Of a DNA stretch of 64,000 nt, positions 56,566-64,000 are shown in pieces. A program made the translations under genes and the position numbers. The notes below the pieces were generated by a model. The model was not told where the DNA came from and did not search any database. It worked only from the letters and a program-made list of their open reading frames with translations. The first letter of the stretch is position 1; each line of letters starts with the position of its first letter. The DNA comes from Betaproteobacteria bacterium (GTDB lineage: Bacteria > Pseudomonadota > Gammaproteobacteria > Burkholderiales > Rhodocyclaceae): the NCBI GenBank assembly GCA_020621405.1, contig JAHRYN010000001.1, forward strand, positions 186,001 to 250,000, written 5' to 3'.

Positions 56566-56892
56566 TCAGCGACGGGTGACCAGCGGGCCGTTCTGCGCCG
56601 AGAAGTAGGCTGCCAGATCCGCCATGTCCTGCGCACTCAGGGCACCGACCTGGGCACCCATGATGGCGTTCTTGCGGGAACCCGTCTTGTATGCATGCAG
56701 CGCCTGCAGGATGTAGTCCTCATGCTGACCGCCGATACGCGGGAAGGCCGGGGCCGGGCTGTTGCCGTCGGCGCCGTGGCAAGCCGCGCAGGCCGTCGAC
56801 TTTTCCTTGCCGCGGGCGGCATCGCCACCGGCCTGGGCCACACCTGCGAGCAGCATCGCGGCGACCGCAACGAACATCGTTTTCTTCATCAT
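56566..56892 (-). CDS. Periplasmic class I cytochrome c
   Basis: A 108-residue exported protein. Signal peptide to about residue 21 (LAGVAQAG), heme motif CAACH and an axial Met in AIMGAQVG. The RIGGQHEDYILQAL and MADLAAYFSAQN segments are those of c553/c4-type monoheme electron carriers. It lies 12 bases after a second such gene, which is similar throughout, so they look like a tandem duplication. Redox partners are unknown. Confidence 0.9.
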   Translation of the reverse strand: MMKKTMFVAVAAMLLAGVAQAGGDAARGKEKSTACAACHGADGNSPAPAFPRIGGQHEDYILQALHAYKTGSRKNAIMGAQVGALSAQDMADLAAYFSAQNGPLVTRR

Positions 56893-56904
56893 TGCCTGAA
56901 TTCC

Positions 56905-57222
56905 TTATTTCTGGGCGCTGTAGTAGGCAGCGAGGTCGGCCATGTCCTGTTCGCTCAGGCTGGCAGCAATGCCGGCCATCGACGGATGCTTGCGGTCACC
57001 GCTCTTGTAGGCCTGCAGCGCGGAAACGATGTATTCGGCGTACTGGCCGCCGATACGCGGCACCTGGTAGGTCTTCGGGAAGGCCGTATGGTAGCCCGGG
57101 ATACCATGACAGCCCACGCACATTGCGATCTTGTCCTTGGCAGCATCTGCATTGCCTTCGACGGCGAACGCGGAGGTGCTGATGCAGACCGCAAGGAAAG
57201 CAAGAAGGGTTCTGGCGCTCAT
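56905..57222 (-). CDS. Periplasmic class I cytochrome c
   Basis: A 105-residue exported protein. A signal peptide (about 1-20, ending AFA), heme motif CVGCH, RIGGQYAEYIVSAL, axial Met in PSMAGI and MADLAAYYSAQK mirror the gene that follows. It probably carries electrons in the periplasm, for instance to a terminal oxidase or nitrogen-oxide reductase. First of the two-gene unit. Confidence 0.9.
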   Translation of the reverse strand: MSARTLLAFLAVCISTSAFAVEGNADAAKDKIAMCVGCHGIPGYHTAFPKTYQVPRIGGQYAEYIVSALQAYKSGDRKHPSMAGIAASLSEQDMADLAAYYSAQK

Positions 57223-57327: not shown

Positions 57328-58317
57328 TCAGGCGGCAGACGTATCAACGACGATCCGCCCACGCACTTTGCCGTCGATGAACCTTGGCGCGACGTCGATC
57401 ACTTCATCGAGCCGTACCACCTGTGTCATCGCGTCGAGCTTGTCCAGCGGCATGTCGCGCACAATGCGTGACCACGCCTCCCGTCGTGGACCGGATGCCA
57501 CCGTGACGCTGTTGATGCCGTATAGCGTGACGCCGCGCAGGATGAAGGGCGCGACGGTGGACGGGAAATCCATGCCCTGCGCCAAGCCGCACGCCGCCAC
57601 CGCGCCGTTTTCGCGAGTGGCCGCGCAGGCGTTCGCCAGCGTGTGCGAACCGACGCTGTCGACCACGCCGGCCCAGCGTTCCTTGGCCAGCGGGCGACCC
57701 GGCGCCGACAGCGTGGCGCGATCGATCACCGATTCGGCGCCCAGCGACTTCAGATAGTCCGTTTCCTCCAGACGCCCCGTACTCGCCACCACCCGGTAGC
57801 CCAGACTGGCCAGCAGCGCGACCGCCACCGAACCGACGCCGCCGCTGGCGCCGGTCACCAGCACCTCGCCATCGCCGGGCTTGAGCCCGTGCCGCTCCAG
57901 CGCCATCAGGCTCAGCATCGCGGTGAAGCCCGCCGTCCCGACCGCCATCGCTCGCCTGGCATCAAGTCCTGCCGGCAGATCCACCAGCCAGTCGCCCTTC
58001 ACCGACGCGCGCTGCCCCAGCCCGCCCCAGTGGCTTTCGCCCACGCCGAAACCAGTCAGCACCACTTCGTCGCCGGCTTTCCAGCACGGGTGGCCGCTGT
58101 GCTCGACCACACCGGAAAAATCGATGCCGGGCACCATCGGCCACTTGCGCACGATGGGACTGCGGCCGGTGATCGCCAGTGCGTCCTTGTAATTCAGGCT
58201 CGACCAGCGAACCGCGACACGCACATCGGCGTCCGGCAACGCCGAATCTTCCACATCCGCCAGACGGGCGACCGTGTCGCCACCCTCGCCCTGCTCCAGC
58301 AATATCGCCTTGAACAT
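57328..58317 (-). CDS. acuI: Acryloyl-CoA reductase-like MDR oxidoreductase
   Basis: A 329-residue medium-chain NADPH oxidoreductase of the YhdH/AcuI branch. Signatures are SSLNYKDALAITGRSPIVRK, PMVPGIDFSGVV, GTAGFTAMLSLMALE and VLVTGASGGVGSVAVALLA. AcuI reduces acryloyl-CoA to propionyl-CoA. No zinc-ligand Cys of alcohol dehydrogenases is present. It is divergent from arsS, with a 118-base gap; a functional link to the arsenosugar genes is not implied. Confidence 0.88.
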   Translation of the reverse strand: MFKAILLEQGEGGDTVARLADVEDSALPDADVRVAVRWSSLNYKDALAITGRSPIVRKWPMVPGIDFSGVVEHSGHPCWKAGDEVVLTGFGVGESHWGGLGQRASVKGDWLVDLPAGLDARRAMAVGTAGFTAMLSLMALERHGLKPGDGEVLVTGASGGVGSVAVALLASLGYRVVASTGRLEETDYLKSLGAESVIDRATLSAPGRPLAKERWAGVVDSVGSHTLANACAATRENGAVAACGLAQGMDFPSTVAPFILRGVTLYGINSVTVASGPRREAWSRIVRDMPLDKLDAMTQVVRLDEVIDVAPRFIDGKVRGRIVVDTSAA

Positions 58318-58435: not shown

Positions 58436-59398
58436 ATGCACGCCACACTGCCACTGCTCGGGCGCTCCGCTTTCCCGGCGCTGCAACGGCGCCGGACCGA
58501 AATCCTGCAGGTAAACCTGGGCTACACGTGCAACCAGAGCTGCCTGCACTGCCACGTCAATGCCGGGCCCGGCCGCACCGAACAGATGAGCGCGGCAAAC
58601 ATCGCACACGTGCTCGACTTCATGCGCAGCGCCGGCGTGCGCCTGCTCGACCTGACCGGCGGCGCACCGGAAATGAACCCGCATTTCCGCCCGCTGGTGA
58701 TGGCAGCCCGCAATCATGGCGTGGCGGTGATGGACCGCTGCAATCTGACCATCCTGTCGGAACCGGGGTACGAGACGCTGGCCGGCTTCCTCGCGGATCA
58801 GGCGGTGCAGATCACCGCCTCGCTGCCGTGCTATCTCGAGGACAACGTGGACCGGCAGCGCGGCAGCGGCGTATTCGCGCGCAGCATCGCGGCGCTGAAA
58901 CAGCTCAATGCGCTCGGCTACGGCCAGCCGGGATCCGGGCTGGAGCTGAATCTGGTGTTCAATCCGCAGGGGCCGTCGCTGCCACCACCGCAGGCGCAGC
59001 TGGAAGCCGCCTACCGCGAACACCTCGGACGCGGCCACGGCATCGTGTTCACGCGTCTGCTGACGCTGGCCAACATGCCCATCCAGCGCTTCGGTTCGGC
59101 ATTGATTTCCAGGGGTGAATTCAACGCCTATATGCAGCTGCTGCGGAACGCTCATCAGGACGCCAACCTGGAGCATGTCATGTGTCGCAACCTGCTCAGC
59201 GTCGACTGGGAGGGTCACGTATTCGACTGCGACTTCAACCAGATGCTCGGACTTCCGCTGCGCATCGACGGGCGTGCCCGCACCCACCTGTCGCAGTTGC
59301 TGGGACGCAATGTGGAGGGCAATCCGGTGCTCACCCTGGATCACTGCCATGGCTGCACCGCCGGTCAGGGTTCGTCCTGCGGCGGTGCCTTGGTCTGA
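58436..59398 (+). CDS. arsS: Arsenosugar biosynthesis radical SAM protein ArsS
   Basis: A 320-residue radical SAM enzyme. The [4Fe-4S] motif C32-x3-C36-x2-C39 (CNQSCLHCHVNAGPGRTEQM) and GGAPEMNPHF are of the ArsS/DUF3641 type, and the C-terminus is Cys-rich (MCRNLLSVDW, FDCDF, DHCHGCTAG, SCGGALV), suggesting an auxiliary cluster. ArsS transfers a 5'-deoxyadenosyl group to dimethylarsenical, the first step to arsenosugars. ATG 58436 is chosen as it matches the family N-terminus. ArsM, the usual partner methyltransferase, is not in the window. Confidence 0.85.
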   Translation: MHATLPLLGRSAFPALQRRRTEILQVNLGYTCNQSCLHCHVNAGPGRTEQMSAANIAHVLDFMRSAGVRLLDLTGGAPEMNPHFRPLVMAARNHGVAVMDRCNLTILSEPGYETLAGFLADQAVQITASLPCYLEDNVDRQRGSGVFARSIAALKQLNALGYGQPGSGLELNLVFNPQGPSLPPPQAQLEAAYREHLGRGHGIVFTRLLTLANMPIQRFGSALISRGEFNAYMQLLRNAHQDANLEHVMCRNLLSVDWEGHVFDCDFNQMLGLPLRIDGRARTHLSQLLGRNVEGNPVLTLDHCHGCTAGQGSSCGGALV

Positions 59399-59409
59399 GG
59401 CAGCGGGCG

Positions 59410-60351
59410 ATGGACGAACACGCCGCCGCCGGCCCCGGACGCAGCTGTCCGCTGCACTACCGCTACGGCGCAGCCGCGCTGGCCGACACGCGTGCCGATG
59501 TGGACGCCGAAGTGCTGTACGTGGTCGGCGGCCTGTACGGCAACCGCCCGGCGCTGGATGCACTGGAGCAGCTGGTCGCGCTGGAGAGACGGCCGGTGCG
59601 CGTGCTGTTCAACGGCGACTTTCACTGGCTCGATGTGGCGGCGGAGTGCTTCTCCGACGTGCAGCGGCGCGTACTGGCGCATGACGCCCTTGCCGGCAAT
59701 GTCGAGGTCGAACTGGTCGATGGCTCGGGCGATGCCGGCTGCGGCTGCGCCTATCCGGCGGACGTGCCCGACGTCGTGGTCGACCGCTCCAATCTGATCC
59801 ACGCCCGCCTGATGCACACCACGCTGCACGATGCGCACTGGCGCGGCGAACTGGCTGCGCTCGACTTCTGGCGTGGCGTGCGTGTCGGCGATGCGCGCGT
59901 CGGCGTCGTGCATGGAGACGCGCACTCGCTGTCCGGCTGGTCATTCGATGCACGTGCGCTGCGCGACACCGCACTGGCGGCGCAACACGAGGACACCTTG
60001 CGCACGGCGCAATGCGATGTGTTCGCCTGCAGCCACACGGGCCTGCCCGCACTCGCGATGTTTGGCGGACAGCGCGCCATCATCAACAACGGCGCCGCCG
60101 GCCTGCCCAATTTCCGAGGCTGTCGCTTCGGCCTGGTCAGCCGCATCGCGCTGACGGCCGCGCCGGTCCGGCCGCAGTACGGCGCCCGCATCGGACATCT
60201 GCACGTCGACGCGCTGGCCCTCCACTACGACCACGCGGCCTGGCTCGCCGAATTCACCGGACAATGGCCGGCACGTTCGCCGGCTGCGCTGAACAACCTC
60301 GAACGCATCGAGCACGGCCCGGCATGGACGCCGGCGGACGCCGCGCCATGA
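59410..60351 (+). CDS. Metallophosphoesterase-like protein with altered metal motif
   Basis: A 313-residue protein. The fold is that of calcineurin-like phosphoesterases: a first strand into LYGNRPALDALEQLV, FNGDFHWLD, VGVVHGDAHS, FACSHTGLPA and IINNGAAGLPNF. The first motif, normally DxHGN, reads GLYGN (about 41-45), and the usual GNHD is missing, so metal binding is changed. It starts 11 bases after arsS and overlaps the next gene (ATGA). It could act on an arsenical nucleoside or sugar phosphate; that is inference from position only. Confidence 0.68.
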   Translation: MDEHAAAGPGRSCPLHYRYGAAALADTRADVDAEVLYVVGGLYGNRPALDALEQLVALERRPVRVLFNGDFHWLDVAAECFSDVQRRVLAHDALAGNVEVELVDGSGDAGCGCAYPADVPDVVVDRSNLIHARLMHTTLHDAHWRGELAALDFWRGVRVGDARVGVVHGDAHSLSGWSFDARALRDTALAAQHEDTLRTAQCDVFACSHTGLPALAMFGGQRAIINNGAAGLPNFRGCRFGLVSRIALTAAPVRPQYGARIGHLHVDALALHYDHAAWLAEFTGQWPARSPAALNNLERIEHGPAWTPADAAP

Positions 60352-62498
60352 ACGCACGCAAGCTCGGTCTCCTGCTGACGGTCGTGTGCCTGGTCGCGGG
60401 CTTCTTTGTCCTCGGTCTGGACCGCTACTTCGATCTGGCCTGGTTCAGGACTCAGCAGCACCTGCTGGCCGATCAGGTGCAATCGGCGCCCTGGACCGCG
60501 GCGACGGTGTATTTCGCGCTCTATGTCCTCGTGACCGCGCTGTCCCTGCCCGGTGCGACGGTGATGACACTGGCAGGCGGCGCCCTGTTCGGCTTCGTCA
60601 CGACGCTGGTACTGGTGTCGTTCGCATCCAGCATCGGTGCCCTGTTCGCCTTCCTGATCGCGCGCTACCTGCTGCGCGACTGGGTTCAGGCGCGCTTCGG
60701 CGCCGCGCTTGCGCCGATCAACGACGGCATGCGCAAGGAAGGCGCCTTCTATCTGTTTACGCTGCGGCTGGTGCCGGCCTTCCCGTTCGTCGCCATCAAC
60801 CTGGCGATGGCGCTGACGCCGCTGCCGGCGCGCACCTTCTACTGGGTCAGCCAGCTCGGCATGCTGGCCGGCACCGCGGCCTATGTGAATGCCGGCACCG
60901 AAATCGCTCGTCTCGACTCGCTCGCCGGCATCCTGTCGCCACCGCTGATCGGCGCTTTCGTACTGCTCGGCCTGCTGCCGCTGGTCGCGCGCCGGCTGCT
61001 GCCGCTGCTGCGAGCACGCCGGATCTATCGCCGCTGGCGCAGGCCGGCCCGCTTCGACCACAATCTGGTGGTGATCGGCGCCGGCAGCGCCGGACTGATC
61101 ACTGCCTACATCGGTGCAGTGGTCAAGGCGCGCGTCGCGCTGATCGAGCGTCACCGGATGGGCGGCGACTGCCTGAACACCGGCTGCGTGCCGTCGAAAG
61201 CCCTGCTCCGATCGGCGCGCCTGCTGGCACAGATCGCGCGCGCGCCTTCGCTCGGCATACGCGAGGCCGATGCACGGTTCGACTTCGCCGACGTGATGGA
61301 GCGCGTGGCCCGTGTGGTGCAGCAGATCGAGCCGCACGATTCGGTCGATCGCTACCGGGCGATGGGCGTGAACTGCATCGCCGGGCAGGCACGCATCACC
61401 TCGCCGTGGACGGTCGAGGTAACCCACGCCGACGGCAGCACGCAGACCCTGAGCACGCGCGCCATCGTCATCGCAGCCGGCGCGCGTCCGAAGCTGCCGC
61501 AGATTCCGGGCATCGAACGGATCGACGCACTCACTTCCGACACCGTATGGTCGCTGCGCACACTGCCGCCGCGCCTGCTGGTGCTCGGCGGTGGTCCGGT
61601 CGGCTGCGAACTGGCACAGGCCTTCGCCCGCTTCGGCTCGCAGGTGACCTTGGTCGAGAGCGCTTCGCGGCTGATGGCGCGCGAGGATCCCGATGTGTCG
61701 GCACTGCTGGCCCGGCAGTTTTCGGCCGAAGGCATCACCGTGCTGACCGCTCACCGGTCGCTGCGTTTCACGCGCGAGGCGGACGGCCAGATGCTGTACG
61801 CCGAGGGGCCGGCCGGCGAGGTCCGCATCGCTTTCGACGCACTGCTGTGCGCGGTCGGGCGCACGCCGAATGTCGAGGGCTACGGTCTGGAGGACCTCGG
61901 CATCGGCCTGCGACCGGACCTGACGGTCGATACCGATGACTATCTGGCAACCCTGTATCCGAACATCTACGCCTGCGGCGACGTGACCGGCCCGTTCCAG
62001 TTCACCCACACGGCGGCGCATCAGGCCTGGTACGCCGCGGTGAATGCGTTGTTCGGCCGCTTCAGGCGTTTCCGCGTCGACTACTCGGCCATTCCACGCG
62101 CCACCTTCACCGAACCGGAAATCGCGCGGGTCGGTCTGAACGAGACGGAAGCGACAGCACGTGGCATCGCACACGAAGTGACGATCTATCCGCTCGACGA
62201 CCTTGACCGCGCCATCACGGACGAAGTGGCTGGCGGCTTCATCAAGGTGCTGACCGTGCCGGGCAGCGACCGCATCCTCGGTGCGACCGTTGTCGGCGAA
62301 CATGCTGGCGAGACGATAGGCGAATACGTGCTGGCGATGAAGAACGGCCTCGGCCTGAACAGGATTCTGGCCACCATCCACATCTACCCGACGATGAACG
62401 AAGGCAACAGGTTCGCGGCCGGCGTCTGGAAGAAGGCGCACGCACCACAGAGGCTGCTGGCCTGGGCCGCCCGCTATCACGCATGGATGCGTCGATGA
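60348..62498 (+). CDS. VTT-domain (TVP38/DedA-like) membrane protein fused to a flavin disulfide oxidoreductase
   Basis: A 716-residue fusion. Residues about 1-225 form a VTT/SNARE-associated domain (SLPGATVMTLAGGALFGF, LRLVPAFPFVAINLAMALT) with about five helices. From about 240 a pyridine nucleotide-disulfide oxidoreductase follows: VVIGAGSAGL, redox-active C275-LNTG-C280, second dinucleotide site LVLGGGPVGCELAQ, GRTPNVEGYGL and HIYPTMNE with the catalytic His/Glu pair. The C-terminal CysCys of mercuric reductase is absent. VTT proteins are lipid scramblases or carriers. Its location among arsenosugar genes suggests a membrane-bound redox step; the substrate is unknown. Confidence 0.88.
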   Translation: MNARKLGLLLTVVCLVAGFFVLGLDRYFDLAWFRTQQHLLADQVQSAPWTAATVYFALYVLVTALSLPGATVMTLAGGALFGFVTTLVLVSFASSIGALFAFLIARYLLRDWVQARFGAALAPINDGMRKEGAFYLFTLRLVPAFPFVAINLAMALTPLPARTFYWVSQLGMLAGTAAYVNAGTEIARLDSLAGILSPPLIGAFVLLGLLPLVARRLLPLLRARRIYRRWRRPARFDHNLVVIGAGSAGLITAYIGAVVKARVALIERHRMGGDCLNTGCVPSKALLRSARLLAQIARAPSLGIREADARFDFADVMERVARVVQQIEPHDSVDRYRAMGVNCIAGQARITSPWTVEVTHADGSTQTLSTRAIVIAAGARPKLPQIPGIERIDALTSDTVWSLRTLPPRLLVLGGGPVGCELAQAFARFGSQVTLVESASRLMAREDPDVSALLARQFSAEGITVLTAHRSLRFTREADGQMLYAEGPAGEVRIAFDALLCAVGRTPNVEGYGLEDLGIGLRPDLTVDTDDYLATLYPNIYACGDVTGPFQFTHTAAHQAWYAAVNALFGRFRRFRVDYSAIPRATFTEPEIARVGLNETEATARGIAHEVTIYPLDDLDRAITDEVAGGFIKVLTVPGSDRILGATVVGEHAGETIGEYVLAMKNGLGLNRILATIHIYPTMNEGNRFAAGVWKKAHAPQRLLAWAARYHAWMRR

Positions 62499-63181
62499 GA
62501 AGTATCAGCATCGTGATGCCGGTACTGAACGAAGCGCCGGCCATCGCCGAGGCGCTGGCCGCGCTGCAGCCGCTGCGCGGCCGGGGCGTGGAAGTCGTCG
62601 TCGCCGACGGCGGCAGCCGCGACGACACCGTGACGCTCGCACGGCCCCTGTGCGACCAGGTCGTTTGCACGCCCCGCGGACGCGCGCTGCAGATGAATGC
62701 CGGTGCCGCCACGGCCACCGGCGACGTGCTGCTCTTCCTGCACGCCGACACCCGCCTGCCGGATGGCGCATACGCGCTGATCGACGGCGCGCTCGGCACC
62801 GTGCGGCAATGGGGTCGCTTCGACGTGCGCATCGACGGCCGCCATCCGCTGCTGCGCCTGATCGCTTTCATGATGAACCTGCGCTCGCGCCTGACCGGCA
62901 TCGCCACCGGCGACCAGGCCATCTTCTGCACGCGCGCGCTGTTCGACCGGCTCGGCGGCTTCGCGCCGATCGCGCTGATGGAAGACATCGATTTCTCACG
63001 CCGTGCCTCGCGCTTCGGTGCGCCGGTCTGTCTCACGGCGCGCGTCGTCACCTCGGGCCGGCGCTGGGAGCGACATGGCGTGCTGCGCACCGTGCTGCTG
63101 ATGTGGCGCCTGCGCCTGCGTTACTTTCTCGGTGCCGATCCGGGCGATCTGGCGCGCGACTACCGTCCGCACCATGAGTGA
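62495..63181 (+). CDS. TIGR04283-type glycosyltransferase (family 2)
   Basis: A 228-residue GT-A glycosyltransferase. SIVMPVLNEAPAIAEALA, VVVADGGSRDDTVTLA, LLFLHADTRLP (DxD-like) and IATGDQAIFCTR are the family signatures; it is the class named TIGR04283, found with arsenosugar genes. Start ATG 62495 overlaps the previous stop (ATGA); an ATG at 62483 is an alternative. It probably glycosylates the arsenical sugar or a lipid carrier. Confidence 0.85.
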   Translation: MRSISIVMPVLNEAPAIAEALAALQPLRGRGVEVVVADGGSRDDTVTLARPLCDQVVCTPRGRALQMNAGAATATGDVLLFLHADTRLPDGAYALIDGALGTVRQWGRFDVRIDGRHPLLRLIAFMMNLRSRLTGIATGDQAIFCTRALFDRLGGFAPIALMEDIDFSRRASRFGAPVCLTARVVTSGRRWERHGVLRTVLLMWRLRLRYFLGADPGDLARDYRPHHE

Positions 63182-63815
63182 AGACACGGGCGAGCGCGCG
63201 ACCGCGGTTCTGGTGTTCGCCCGCGCGCCGGTGGCCGGGCAGGCCAAGACCCGTCTGATCCCGCTGCTCGGCGCGCAGGGCGCCGCCGACCTCAGCGCGC
63301 AGCTGACGCGGCGTGCGCTGCGCGTGGCGCTCGACGCACGCATCGGCCCGGTCGAACTGTGGTGCGCGCCCGACGGCAGCCACCCATTCCTCACCGGCTC
63401 TGCGCGTGACTTCGGCGTCACGCTGCACGCCCAGTCGGCGGGCGACATCGGCGCACGCATGGCGCACGCCTTCGAGCACGCGCTGGTGCGCCACGGGCGG
63501 GTGGTGCTGATCGGTGCCGATGCCGTGTCGCTGCAGCCGGCCGACCTGCAGGCGGCCGCCGGGGCGCTGCGTCGACACGACTGCGCATTCGCGCCGGCCG
63601 CGGACGGCGGCTATCTGCTGGTCGCGCTGCAGACACTGCAGCCGGCACTGTTCGAAGACATCGCCTGGGGCGGCGAACAGGTATGGTCGCAGACGCAGGC
63701 ACGCATCGCTGTGCTCGGGCTGGACTGCCACATGCTGGCCACCGGTTACGACCTCGACCGCCCGGACGACTACCGGCGGGCGCTGCGCGACGGACTGATC
63801 GGAGCACCGCCGTGA
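63174..63815 (+). CDS. TIGR04282-type glycosyltransferase/nucleotidyltransferase (GT-A fold)
   Basis: A 213-residue protein. VLVFARAPVAGQAKTRLIPL is the nucleotide-sugar/nucleotide-binding opening, VVLIGADAVSLQP the metal site (family form GTDCP here is GADAV), and FAPAADGGYLLVAL is conserved. TIGR04282 members are usual neighbours of TIGR04283 in arsenosugar clusters. It overlaps the previous gene by 8 bases. Confidence 0.82.
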   Translation: MSEDTGERATAVLVFARAPVAGQAKTRLIPLLGAQGAADLSAQLTRRALRVALDARIGPVELWCAPDGSHPFLTGSARDFGVTLHAQSAGDIGARMAHAFEHALVRHGRVVLIGADAVSLQPADLQAAAGALRRHDCAFAPAADGGYLLVALQTLQPALFEDIAWGGEQVWSQTQARIAVLGLDCHMLATGYDLDRPDDYRRALRDGLIGAPP

Positions 63816-64000
63816 GATGGCCGTTGCGCACCCTGCTGGTCGCGACCCTGTGCTGTCTGTCCGGCGCACAGGCGGAACCGCCCCCGCTGCCCGCCTTTTC
63901 GGCACAGGCGGCGGGCACCCGCATCATCGGCTGGACGCCGTGGACGCTGAGCGGCAAGGCGGCACCGGCGGACTTCCGGCTGGTCGATCTGGACGGACGC
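63812..64000 (+). CDS. Exported protein, possibly DUF3047, N-terminal part
   Basis: Only 63 codons are inside the window. The start is GTG 63812 in a GTGA overlap with the preceding stop. A signal peptide (about 1-21, LCCLSGAQAE) is followed by GWTPWTLSGKAAPADFRLVD, a pattern like the DUF3047 N-terminal region (GW ... then RLV). The DUF3047 assignment rests on this short stretch. It is the sixth tightly linked gene after arsS. Confidence 0.5.
   Translation, partial: MRWPLRTLLVATLCCLSGAQAEPPPLPAFSAQAAGTRIIGWTPWTLSGKAAPADFRLVDLDGR

Follow-up and report, generated by a model that had tools for sequence, protein, structure and literature searches.

How does a gene cluster built around ArsS, the radical SAM (S-adenosylmethionine) enzyme of arsenosugar synthesis, operate when ArsM, the methyltransferase that normally acts before it, is missing? 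The question is raised by a 64-kb stretch of DNA (positions 186001-250000 of contig C12; "the window" below means this whole stretch) from the genome of a betaproteobacterium close to Methyloversatilis (3.8 Mb, 12 contigs, completeness 100). An operon at the end of the window encodes ArsS together with several putative partners, none of which is ArsM. We consider, with a probability of about 0.5, that this operon represents an ArsM-less variant of an ArsS-type organoarsenical pathway, in which a protein designated here G2 occupies the place of ArsM and the arsenic is methylated elsewhere. The ArsM-less variant is widespread. The operon consists of the following genes (our own handles are used for loci, L, and genomes, G):

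58436-59398, + strand: ArsS (arsS), radical SAM protein of the arsenosugar type, 320 amino acids (TIGR04167, PF12345, Radical_SAM)
59410-60351, + strand: G2, the neighbour of ArsS, metallophosphoesterase fold according to the predicted structure, 313 amino acids (Pfam matches only below cut-off)
60348-62498, + strand: membrane protein of 716 amino acids, VTT domain fused to a MerA/lipoamide-dehydrogenase-like flavoenzyme (PF09335, PF07992, PF02852)
62495-63181 (alternative start 62483), + strand: TIGR04283 glycosyltransferase (TIGR04283 above cut-off)
63174-63815, + strand: TIGR04282, CofC-like nucleotidyl/glycosyltransferase, 213 amino acids (TIGR04282, PF09837)
63812-64543, + strand (the window ends at 64000): DUF3047 protein (PF11249; signal-peptide-like N-terminus by eye)
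64540-65628, + strand, wholly outside the window: seventh gene, TIGR03169 flavoprotein (TIGR03169; read from the extended locus L014)

All seven genes are co-directional and together span 58436-65628, the final 1.6 kb lying outside the window. The initial annotation had placed the first six of them correctly and united them in one operon; this stands, except that the seventh gene extends the operon to 65628. Overlaps of 4-8 bases, proposed there for most of the junctions, are indeed present at most of them, but ArsS and G2 are separated by an 11-base gap, and the TIGR04283 gene overlaps its predecessor by 4 or 16 bases (start at 62495 or 62483). The remaining overlaps comprise 4 (60348-60351), 8 (63174-63181), 4 (63812-63815) and 4 (64540-64543) bases. 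A scan for promoters and terminators gave no signal above chance.

The assignment of ArsS and of the two glycosyltransferases to their families was confirmed, all three being above the curated cut-offs. ArsS scored 440.3 bits against TIGR04167 (cut-off 300), contains the PF12345 and Radical_SAM domains (Pfam) and possesses all ten cysteines that are each conserved in at least 186 of 187 compared ArsS sequences. The TIGR04283 protein (274.8 bits, cut-off 182) is the sole above-cut-off match of this model in the genome, and the TIGR04282 protein (186 bits, cut-off 134) matched PF09837 as well. The models are graded "equivalog" for TIGR04283 and "hypoth_equivalog" for TIGR04282, and both family names presumably rest on gene neighbourhood. 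In the VTT/flavoenzyme, VTT_dom (PF09335, 70.6 bits, residues 70-183) is combined with Pyr_redox_2 (PF07992) and Pyr_redox_dim (PF02852); its score against NF004991 (501 bits) is under the cut-off of that model (620), and its sequence contains CLNTGC, which we take to resemble the active-site disulfide of MerA/lipoamide-dehydrogenase-like enzymes. The DUF3047 protein scored 215.2 bits against PF11249, and the seventh gene product 398 bits against TIGR03169 (cut-off 310). Judging by family membership, the operon would work like the ArsM-ArsS pathway from ArsS onward; we infer its arsenic chemistry, with arsenic as the element handled being read off the family names.

The initial annotation had noted that arsM is absent from the window. 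This is the case, and a search for ArsM elsewhere in the genome with three models revealed none. With NF008823, all 23 of 23 candidates were scored, the best reaching 69 bits (cut-off 263); with A1, an alignment profile of 17 ArsM-like enzymes from ArsS neighbourhoods, all 28 of 28 were scored, the best reaching 20.8 bits; NF038099, the NCBI model for arsenosugar ArsM, had no match at E 1e-15. (The first member of A1 scored 343 bits against NF040538, the model for arsinothricin ArsM, below its cut-off of 500.) The two best candidates of the genome resemble a sarcosine-type methyltransferase and UbiE, as judged from the sequences and not by a family search. As the reference system we take the ArsM-ArsS arsenosugar pathway of cyanobacteria with Synechocystis ArsS, as far as it is described in PMC12159101 and PMC8552651, where Cheng et al. 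2021 is cited. The operon shares with it an ArsS above the curated cut-off as well as TIGR04282 and TIGR04283, which NCBI named for the pathway, whereas it differs in the lack of ArsM (in the operon and in the genome) and in the presence of G2, the extra flavoproteins and DUF3047. Since ArsM was not found, the operon fails one defining feature of that pathway.

This situation is not peculiar to the window. ArsS is encoded by 65 of 200 genomes of its order, but an ArsM hit was obtained in just 18 of the 65. Members of the order thus commonly have ArsS without ArsM, and the missing ArsM is a lineage feature rather than a local gap. In the class sample of 369 genomes, ArsS was above its cut-off in 180; the ArsS set defined by E ≤1e-60 comprises 183 genomes (including G033, G087 and G101, each under the ArsS cut-off), and ArsM hits were obtained in 133 of these 183 vs 24 of the 186 remaining genomes. 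An ArsM hit means here a match to NF008823 at E 1e-40 or to A1 at E 1e-30 (class) or 1e-40 (order); the NF008823 hits are above the curated cut-off in 69/115 class genomes and 8/24 order genomes. Applied at E 1e-15 to the 46 other ArsS genomes of the order without an NF008823 or A1 match, NF038099 detected no ArsM. In the large group searches, no more than 5-11 first-look candidates were scored for each genome, which makes the absence of ArsM in the relatives less firm than in the genome of the window.

What accompanies ArsS was then counted as partners located within 9 kb on the same strand. The class set consists of 101 ArsS loci, i.e., the window and 100 loci picked by hand for long contigs and not at random. 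TIGR04283 was present in 70/101 and TIGR04282 in 70/101 of them (window included); the ArsS core is therefore a conserved unit, and the lack of co-occurrence that would have refuted the initial annotation did not arise. ArsM was found in 32 of the 101 loci, G2 in one (the window), neither in 68 and both in none. For G2, a scan with one genome per species retrieved at least 509 relatives among 591 stretches, and the best 80 were taken as G2 loci (another set of 32 loci shares four G2 sequences with them besides that of the window, and the two sets were not summed). These 80 loci contain ArsS (65), the VTT/flavoenzyme (47), TIGR04283 (43), TIGR04282 (41), DUF3047 (23), DUF547 (23) and TIGR03169 (19). 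Where ArsS was present (n=65), G2 was nearby in 64 cases and ArsM in none, and neither of two ArsM profiles had a match in any of the 80 loci. Fisher's test for ArsM in 0/64 G2 loci vs 32/100 loci gives 1.9e-8, a value that overstates the effect, as the rows are related.

Two genomes illustrate the exchange of partners. In G387, from the same family as the window, the locus L301 has the order VTT/flavoenzyme-DUF3047-TIGR04283-TIGR04282-ArsS-ArsM. Its ArsS, VTT/flavoenzyme, TIGR04283, TIGR04282 and DUF3047 are homologous to those of the window (37-66% identity), whereas in L301, as in L088, another class ArsS-ArsM cluster, ArsS adjoins an ArsM-like methyltransferase and G2 is absent. The ArsS of G387 is placed among G2-partnered ArsS proteins (five G2 rows and one ArsM row; starred 99, FastTree). 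Genome G497 possesses two ArsS genes, one adjoining G2 (L196) and the other adjoining ArsM (L300). ArsM-partnered and G2-partnered ArsS are not told apart by any column of the ArsS alignment (threshold 70% in both groups), an argument that their chemistry is the same.

G2 is the most informative part of the cluster, a point missed by the initial annotation, which lists it as a phosphoesterase-like gene. Its relatives occur in 35 of the 200 order genomes at E 0.001 and in 33 at E <1e-8, after exclusion of two weak matches (G403 and G561, E above 6e-4); in two of the 33 (G467, G378) the match is fragmented. All 33 of these 33 genomes carry ArsS, vs 65/200 order genomes overall. By their titles, the G2 loci belong mostly to Burkholderiales, Betaproteobacteria and Rhodocyclales, with some Competibacteraceae and one Pseudolabrys, and G2 relatives are found on 48 plasmid records, 47 of them from Burkholderia. 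In two Burkholderia glumae plasmids (L298, L299), the G2-type ArsS cluster lies near a Tn3 transposase; they also carry a sigma-70 family/zf-HC2 pair, a major facilitator superfamily (MFS) transporter, a second radical SAM protein and an annotated methylthioadenosine (MTA) phosphorylase. A contig titled as a Bordetella parapertussis metagenome-assembled genome (MAG) harbours a G2-ArsS-PhnDE cluster (L241); this title probably stems from binning.

No NCBIfam model matched G2 at E 0.001, and the sole Pfam match, DUF5810, was below its cut-off. In the set of 81 G2 sequences (80 relatives and the window sequence), Metallophos_2 was detected in 28 and Metallophos in 11, all weakly (best E 4e-4). 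Because a search of solved structures with the G2 alignment gave no sequence match, a fold search was performed. The AlphaFold2 model built from the 81 sequences has a predicted local distance difference test score (pLDDT) of 95.0 and a predicted template-modelling score (pTM) of 0.93, and its best solved-structure match was the diadenosine tetraphosphate (Ap4A) hydrolase SapH/Spr1479 (E 2e-11, template-modelling (TM) score 0.61/0.74), followed by two archaeal proteins. G2 is thus confidently modelled as having a metallophosphoesterase (calcineurin-like) fold. Binuclear metallophosphoesterases display the five-motif pattern DxH, GDxx, GNH, H, GHxH. G2 has the fold and the motif order of the SapH/YfcE-type enzymes, whereas DxH is changed to G41-L-Y43, GNH to N97-V98 (I in 1/81) and GHxH to [ST]HxC, i.e., H209-x-C211 (C in 80/81, G in the window). 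D70, N97, H168 and H209 are invariant (81/81), as are C13, C111 and C113 (81/81). With four ligands, about half of the set, replaced by motif order (G41, Y43, V98, C/G211), the full two-metal complement is not present; on this mapping, one of the two metal sites appears to be lost. We infer a changed activity, perhaps involving a thiolate-bound arsenical.

The G2 clusters often include a transporter. In the 64 G2-ArsS loci, it is present in 45: a symporter type (SSS) in 33 and an HtxB/PhnD-type ATP-binding cassette (ABC) transporter in 12, never both; in all 80 G2 loci the numbers are 38 and 20, again with no locus having both. The symporter (~460 amino acids, weakly SSF-like) is located between ArsS and G2 in 33/33 loci holding all three genes. 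The ABC-type loci carry PhnC-, PhnE- and PhnD-like genes and were counted by PhnD and PhnE, as the PhnC profile also matches the unrelated convergent ABC ATPase beside the operon of the window and of its relatives. Profiles for SSS, PhnD and PhnE built from G2 loci, which recognize these types only, matched in 0/101 class loci. The existence of two unrelated and mutually replacing transporters suggests that they share one cargo. Of the ABC binding proteins, that of L275 was searched; its best match is HtxB (148 bits), followed by PtxB (75), PhnD (73), ArrX (49) and AioX (44). The pocket residues of HtxB (numbering as given in the parts of PMC5700983 and PMC6629693 that describe them) were compared by hand in an alignment: W52, T129, S130, R178 and D206 correspond to invariant residues in 20/20 cluster binding proteins, and N128 and F158 are Ser and His, as in PtxB. 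The importers of the relatives resemble HtxBCDE/PtxABC/PhnCDE, with PhnE of L204 above its cut-off and HtxB as the nearest solved binding protein, whereas they differ in being located in ArsS-G2 clusters and in a predicted pocket mixing HtxB and PtxB residues.

In chemical terms, dimethylarsinate, (CH3)2AsO2-, corresponds to hypophosphite, H2PO2-, which HtxB binds, with arsenic in place of phosphorus and methyl groups in place of hydrogen. This likeness, together with HtxB being the nearest binding protein, makes the idea of an import of methylated arsenic concrete. Another enzyme relevant here is MTA phosphorylase, whose type cleaves 5'-substituted adenosine. Homologues are present in 8/80 G2 loci (one match is short and three are on the opposite strand), adjoining G2 directly in L266 and PhnD in L296, and in 1/101 class loci. 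In the cluster of a Burkholderia glumae plasmid, the annotated enzyme adjoins TIGR04283, and in a family test this plasmid protein and two of the homologues were each above a curated cut-off. Their presence supports, without proving, an ArsS-type product with adenosylated arsenic as an intermediate.

Based on these data, the following sequence of events can be proposed. The cell would not methylate arsenic itself but take it up after methylation by other organisms, as dimethylarsinate or its reduced form; in many relatives the route may be the dedicated transporter of the cluster. Reducing power to yield trivalent arsenic may be provided by the VTT/flavoenzyme or by the TIGR03169 flavoprotein, and to this arsenic ArsS, as expected for its family, would add a 5'-deoxyadenosyl radical, giving 5'-deoxy-5'-(dimethylarsinyl)adenosine. 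A phosphorylase, such as the MTA phosphorylase homologue of some relatives, could remove adenine, and TIGR04282 and TIGR04283 might then act on a sugar or headgroup, activating and transferring it. G2 would handle a phosphate- or arsenic-centred intermediate: either it would liberate the arsenical from a form that was imported or phosphorylated, or it would bind the arsenical through its cysteines. A more specific version of this scheme is advanced tentatively, and we would sooner bet against it as a whole: that the clusters form an organoarsenical branch in which a methylated oxyanion is scavenged by dedicated transporters, that G2 is a new half-site, cysteine-bearing metallophosphoesterase-fold family performing an indispensable step that precedes or follows ArsS, and that this branch has spread through Burkholderiales, Rhodocyclales, Competibacteraceae and plasmids.

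Several observations weigh against the ArsM-less arsenic pathway with G2 in the place of ArsM. No sequence evidence was found that G2-type clusters handle arsenic, and the nearest relatives of the ABC binding protein bind reduced phosphorus. The G2 of the window is the only one of the 81 without Cys211 (Gly; codon 60040-60042). No SSS or ABC-type transporter is present in its operon or in the 74 kb scanned; as ArsS and G2 are separated by a symporter-like gene of ~1.4 kb in 4/4 of the nearest relatives, the operon has probably lost its symporter. These transporters are likewise missing from the 68 class loci that have no ArsM and no G2 nearby, i.e., the transporters track G2 and not the lack of ArsM. 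At the level of genomes, the 65 ArsS-containing members of the order divide into 7 with both G2 and ArsM, 26 with G2 only, 11 with ArsM only and 21 with neither, and this exclusion is not significant (p 0.28); it therefore acts locally, between gene neighbourhoods, and not between whole genomes. The 21 of 65 genomes with neither mean that G2 is not the sole route without ArsM; two loci from such genomes (L302, L303) have ArsS and the VTT/flavoenzyme with no ArsM and no G2 (one of the two additionally with DUF547 and TIGR04283). Taxonomy, and not functional exclusivity, may account for the clustering of G2.

The most serious competitor, which we regard as somewhat unlikely, is an ordinary arsenosugar operon served by a divergent, undetected methyltransferase encoded elsewhere in the genome; G2 would then be an accessory downstream phosphatase (e.g., for phosphorylated arsenoribose), anticorrelated with ArsM for reasons of lineage history. 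The genome does contain several class I methyltransferases, an ArsM-made substrate is the rule in the class (see the 133 of 183 genomes above), seven order genomes hold both G2 and ArsM, and on the ArsS tree the G2 labels are grouped (13 changes vs a shuffled mean of 63). However, the three ArsM models detected nothing in this genome, the best candidates appearing to be of other types, and 0/47 ArsS genomes of the order that were missed by the first two models matched the third. Moreover, G2 and ArsM were never observed in the same ArsS neighbourhood, and the transporters follow G2 and not ArsM. Handling of reduced phosphorus is improbable: here phosphite or hypophosphite would be imported and the ArsS homologue would form a carbon-phosphorus bond. 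The similarity of the binding protein to HtxB (hypophosphite) and PtxB (phosphite), the match of the HtxB pocket residues and the phosphoesterase fold of G2 are all consistent with it, but the ArsS alignment does not distinguish the two groups of partners, an ArsM-paired ArsS is found inside the G2-paired group, the other cluster genes are common to ArsM clusters, and the unrelated symporter type outnumbers the ABC type.

We see equally little reason to expect that the product is an arsenolipid or an exported arsenosugar, as proposed in the initial annotation on account of the membrane flavoprotein and the secreted protein. The VTT domain and the signal-peptide-like start of DUF3047 gave rise to this idea; yet both proteins also occur in ArsM-type loci (13/32 and 2/32, respectively) and so do not mark such a product, DUF3047 is present in only 15/64 G2 clusters with ArsS, and no link of either protein to lipids or export was found. 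Least probable is a selenium system. It is suggested by the names of two models (Nterm_to_SelD for TIGR03169, rSAM_SeCys for ArsS) and by SelD and MnmH encoded 5-7 kb downstream of the operon, but with flanks of ≤10 kb SelD was found in 1/80 and MnmH in 4/80 G2 loci, all of the Methyloversatilis type, and the ArsS of the window has cysteine at all ten conserved positions. As the selD linkage is not conserved, this reading was dropped.

A further point of comparison is the arsinothricin cluster arsQML. As far as described in PMC8552651, it likewise combines the formation of a carbon-arsenic bond by a radical SAM enzyme with dedicated transport, whereas ArsL is predicted to transfer a 3-amino-3-carboxypropyl and not an adenosyl group, the cluster has its own ArsM, and ArsQ is an efflux permease. 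Among the literature matches listed, in which subscription papers were mostly outside the coverage, none was recognised as dealing with ArsM-less ArsS clusters or the G2 family.

The surroundings of the operon are conserved as well. Upstream lies a divergent AcuI-type gene (57328-58317), downstream a convergent ABC ATPase gene. The four nearest relatives of the window's G2 (three titled Methyloversatilis, 70-71% identity, and one Gammaproteobacteria MAG, 66%) have the seven-gene order in common with the window (61-79% identity), which speaks against a chance arrangement, and the flanking AcuI, ABC and TesA genes are also kept in order. Near the upstream neighbour, two small tandem CxxCH genes (56566-57222, - strand) look c-type-cytochrome-like by eye; a similar-looking gene occurs in 12/80 G2 loci. 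Further downstream, selD and mnmH (tRNA 2-selenouridine synthase) form a divergent pair (L014:15277-16317, - strand, and L014:16363-17478, + strand, approximately window 70276-72477); mnmH is kept in the loci of the four nearest relatives, with selD beside it in one (L220). In L127 and L144, a single open frame inside the ArsS neighbourhood matches TIGR03169 and SelD, i.e., a fusion. Elsewhere in the genome (G000:C9:221711-222436), an OvoA-type C-terminal domain (TIGR04345, 348 bits, cut-off 170) suggests ovothiol synthesis.

G2, the two transporter types and the MTA-phosphorylase-like step are specific handles on the steps of the ArsS pathway, which can be approached one at a time. Should the G2 branch prove real, methylated arsenic produced by others would be consumed by many betaproteobacteria and converted to sugar-bound forms, a link in the arsenic cycle that arsM-based surveys would miss.

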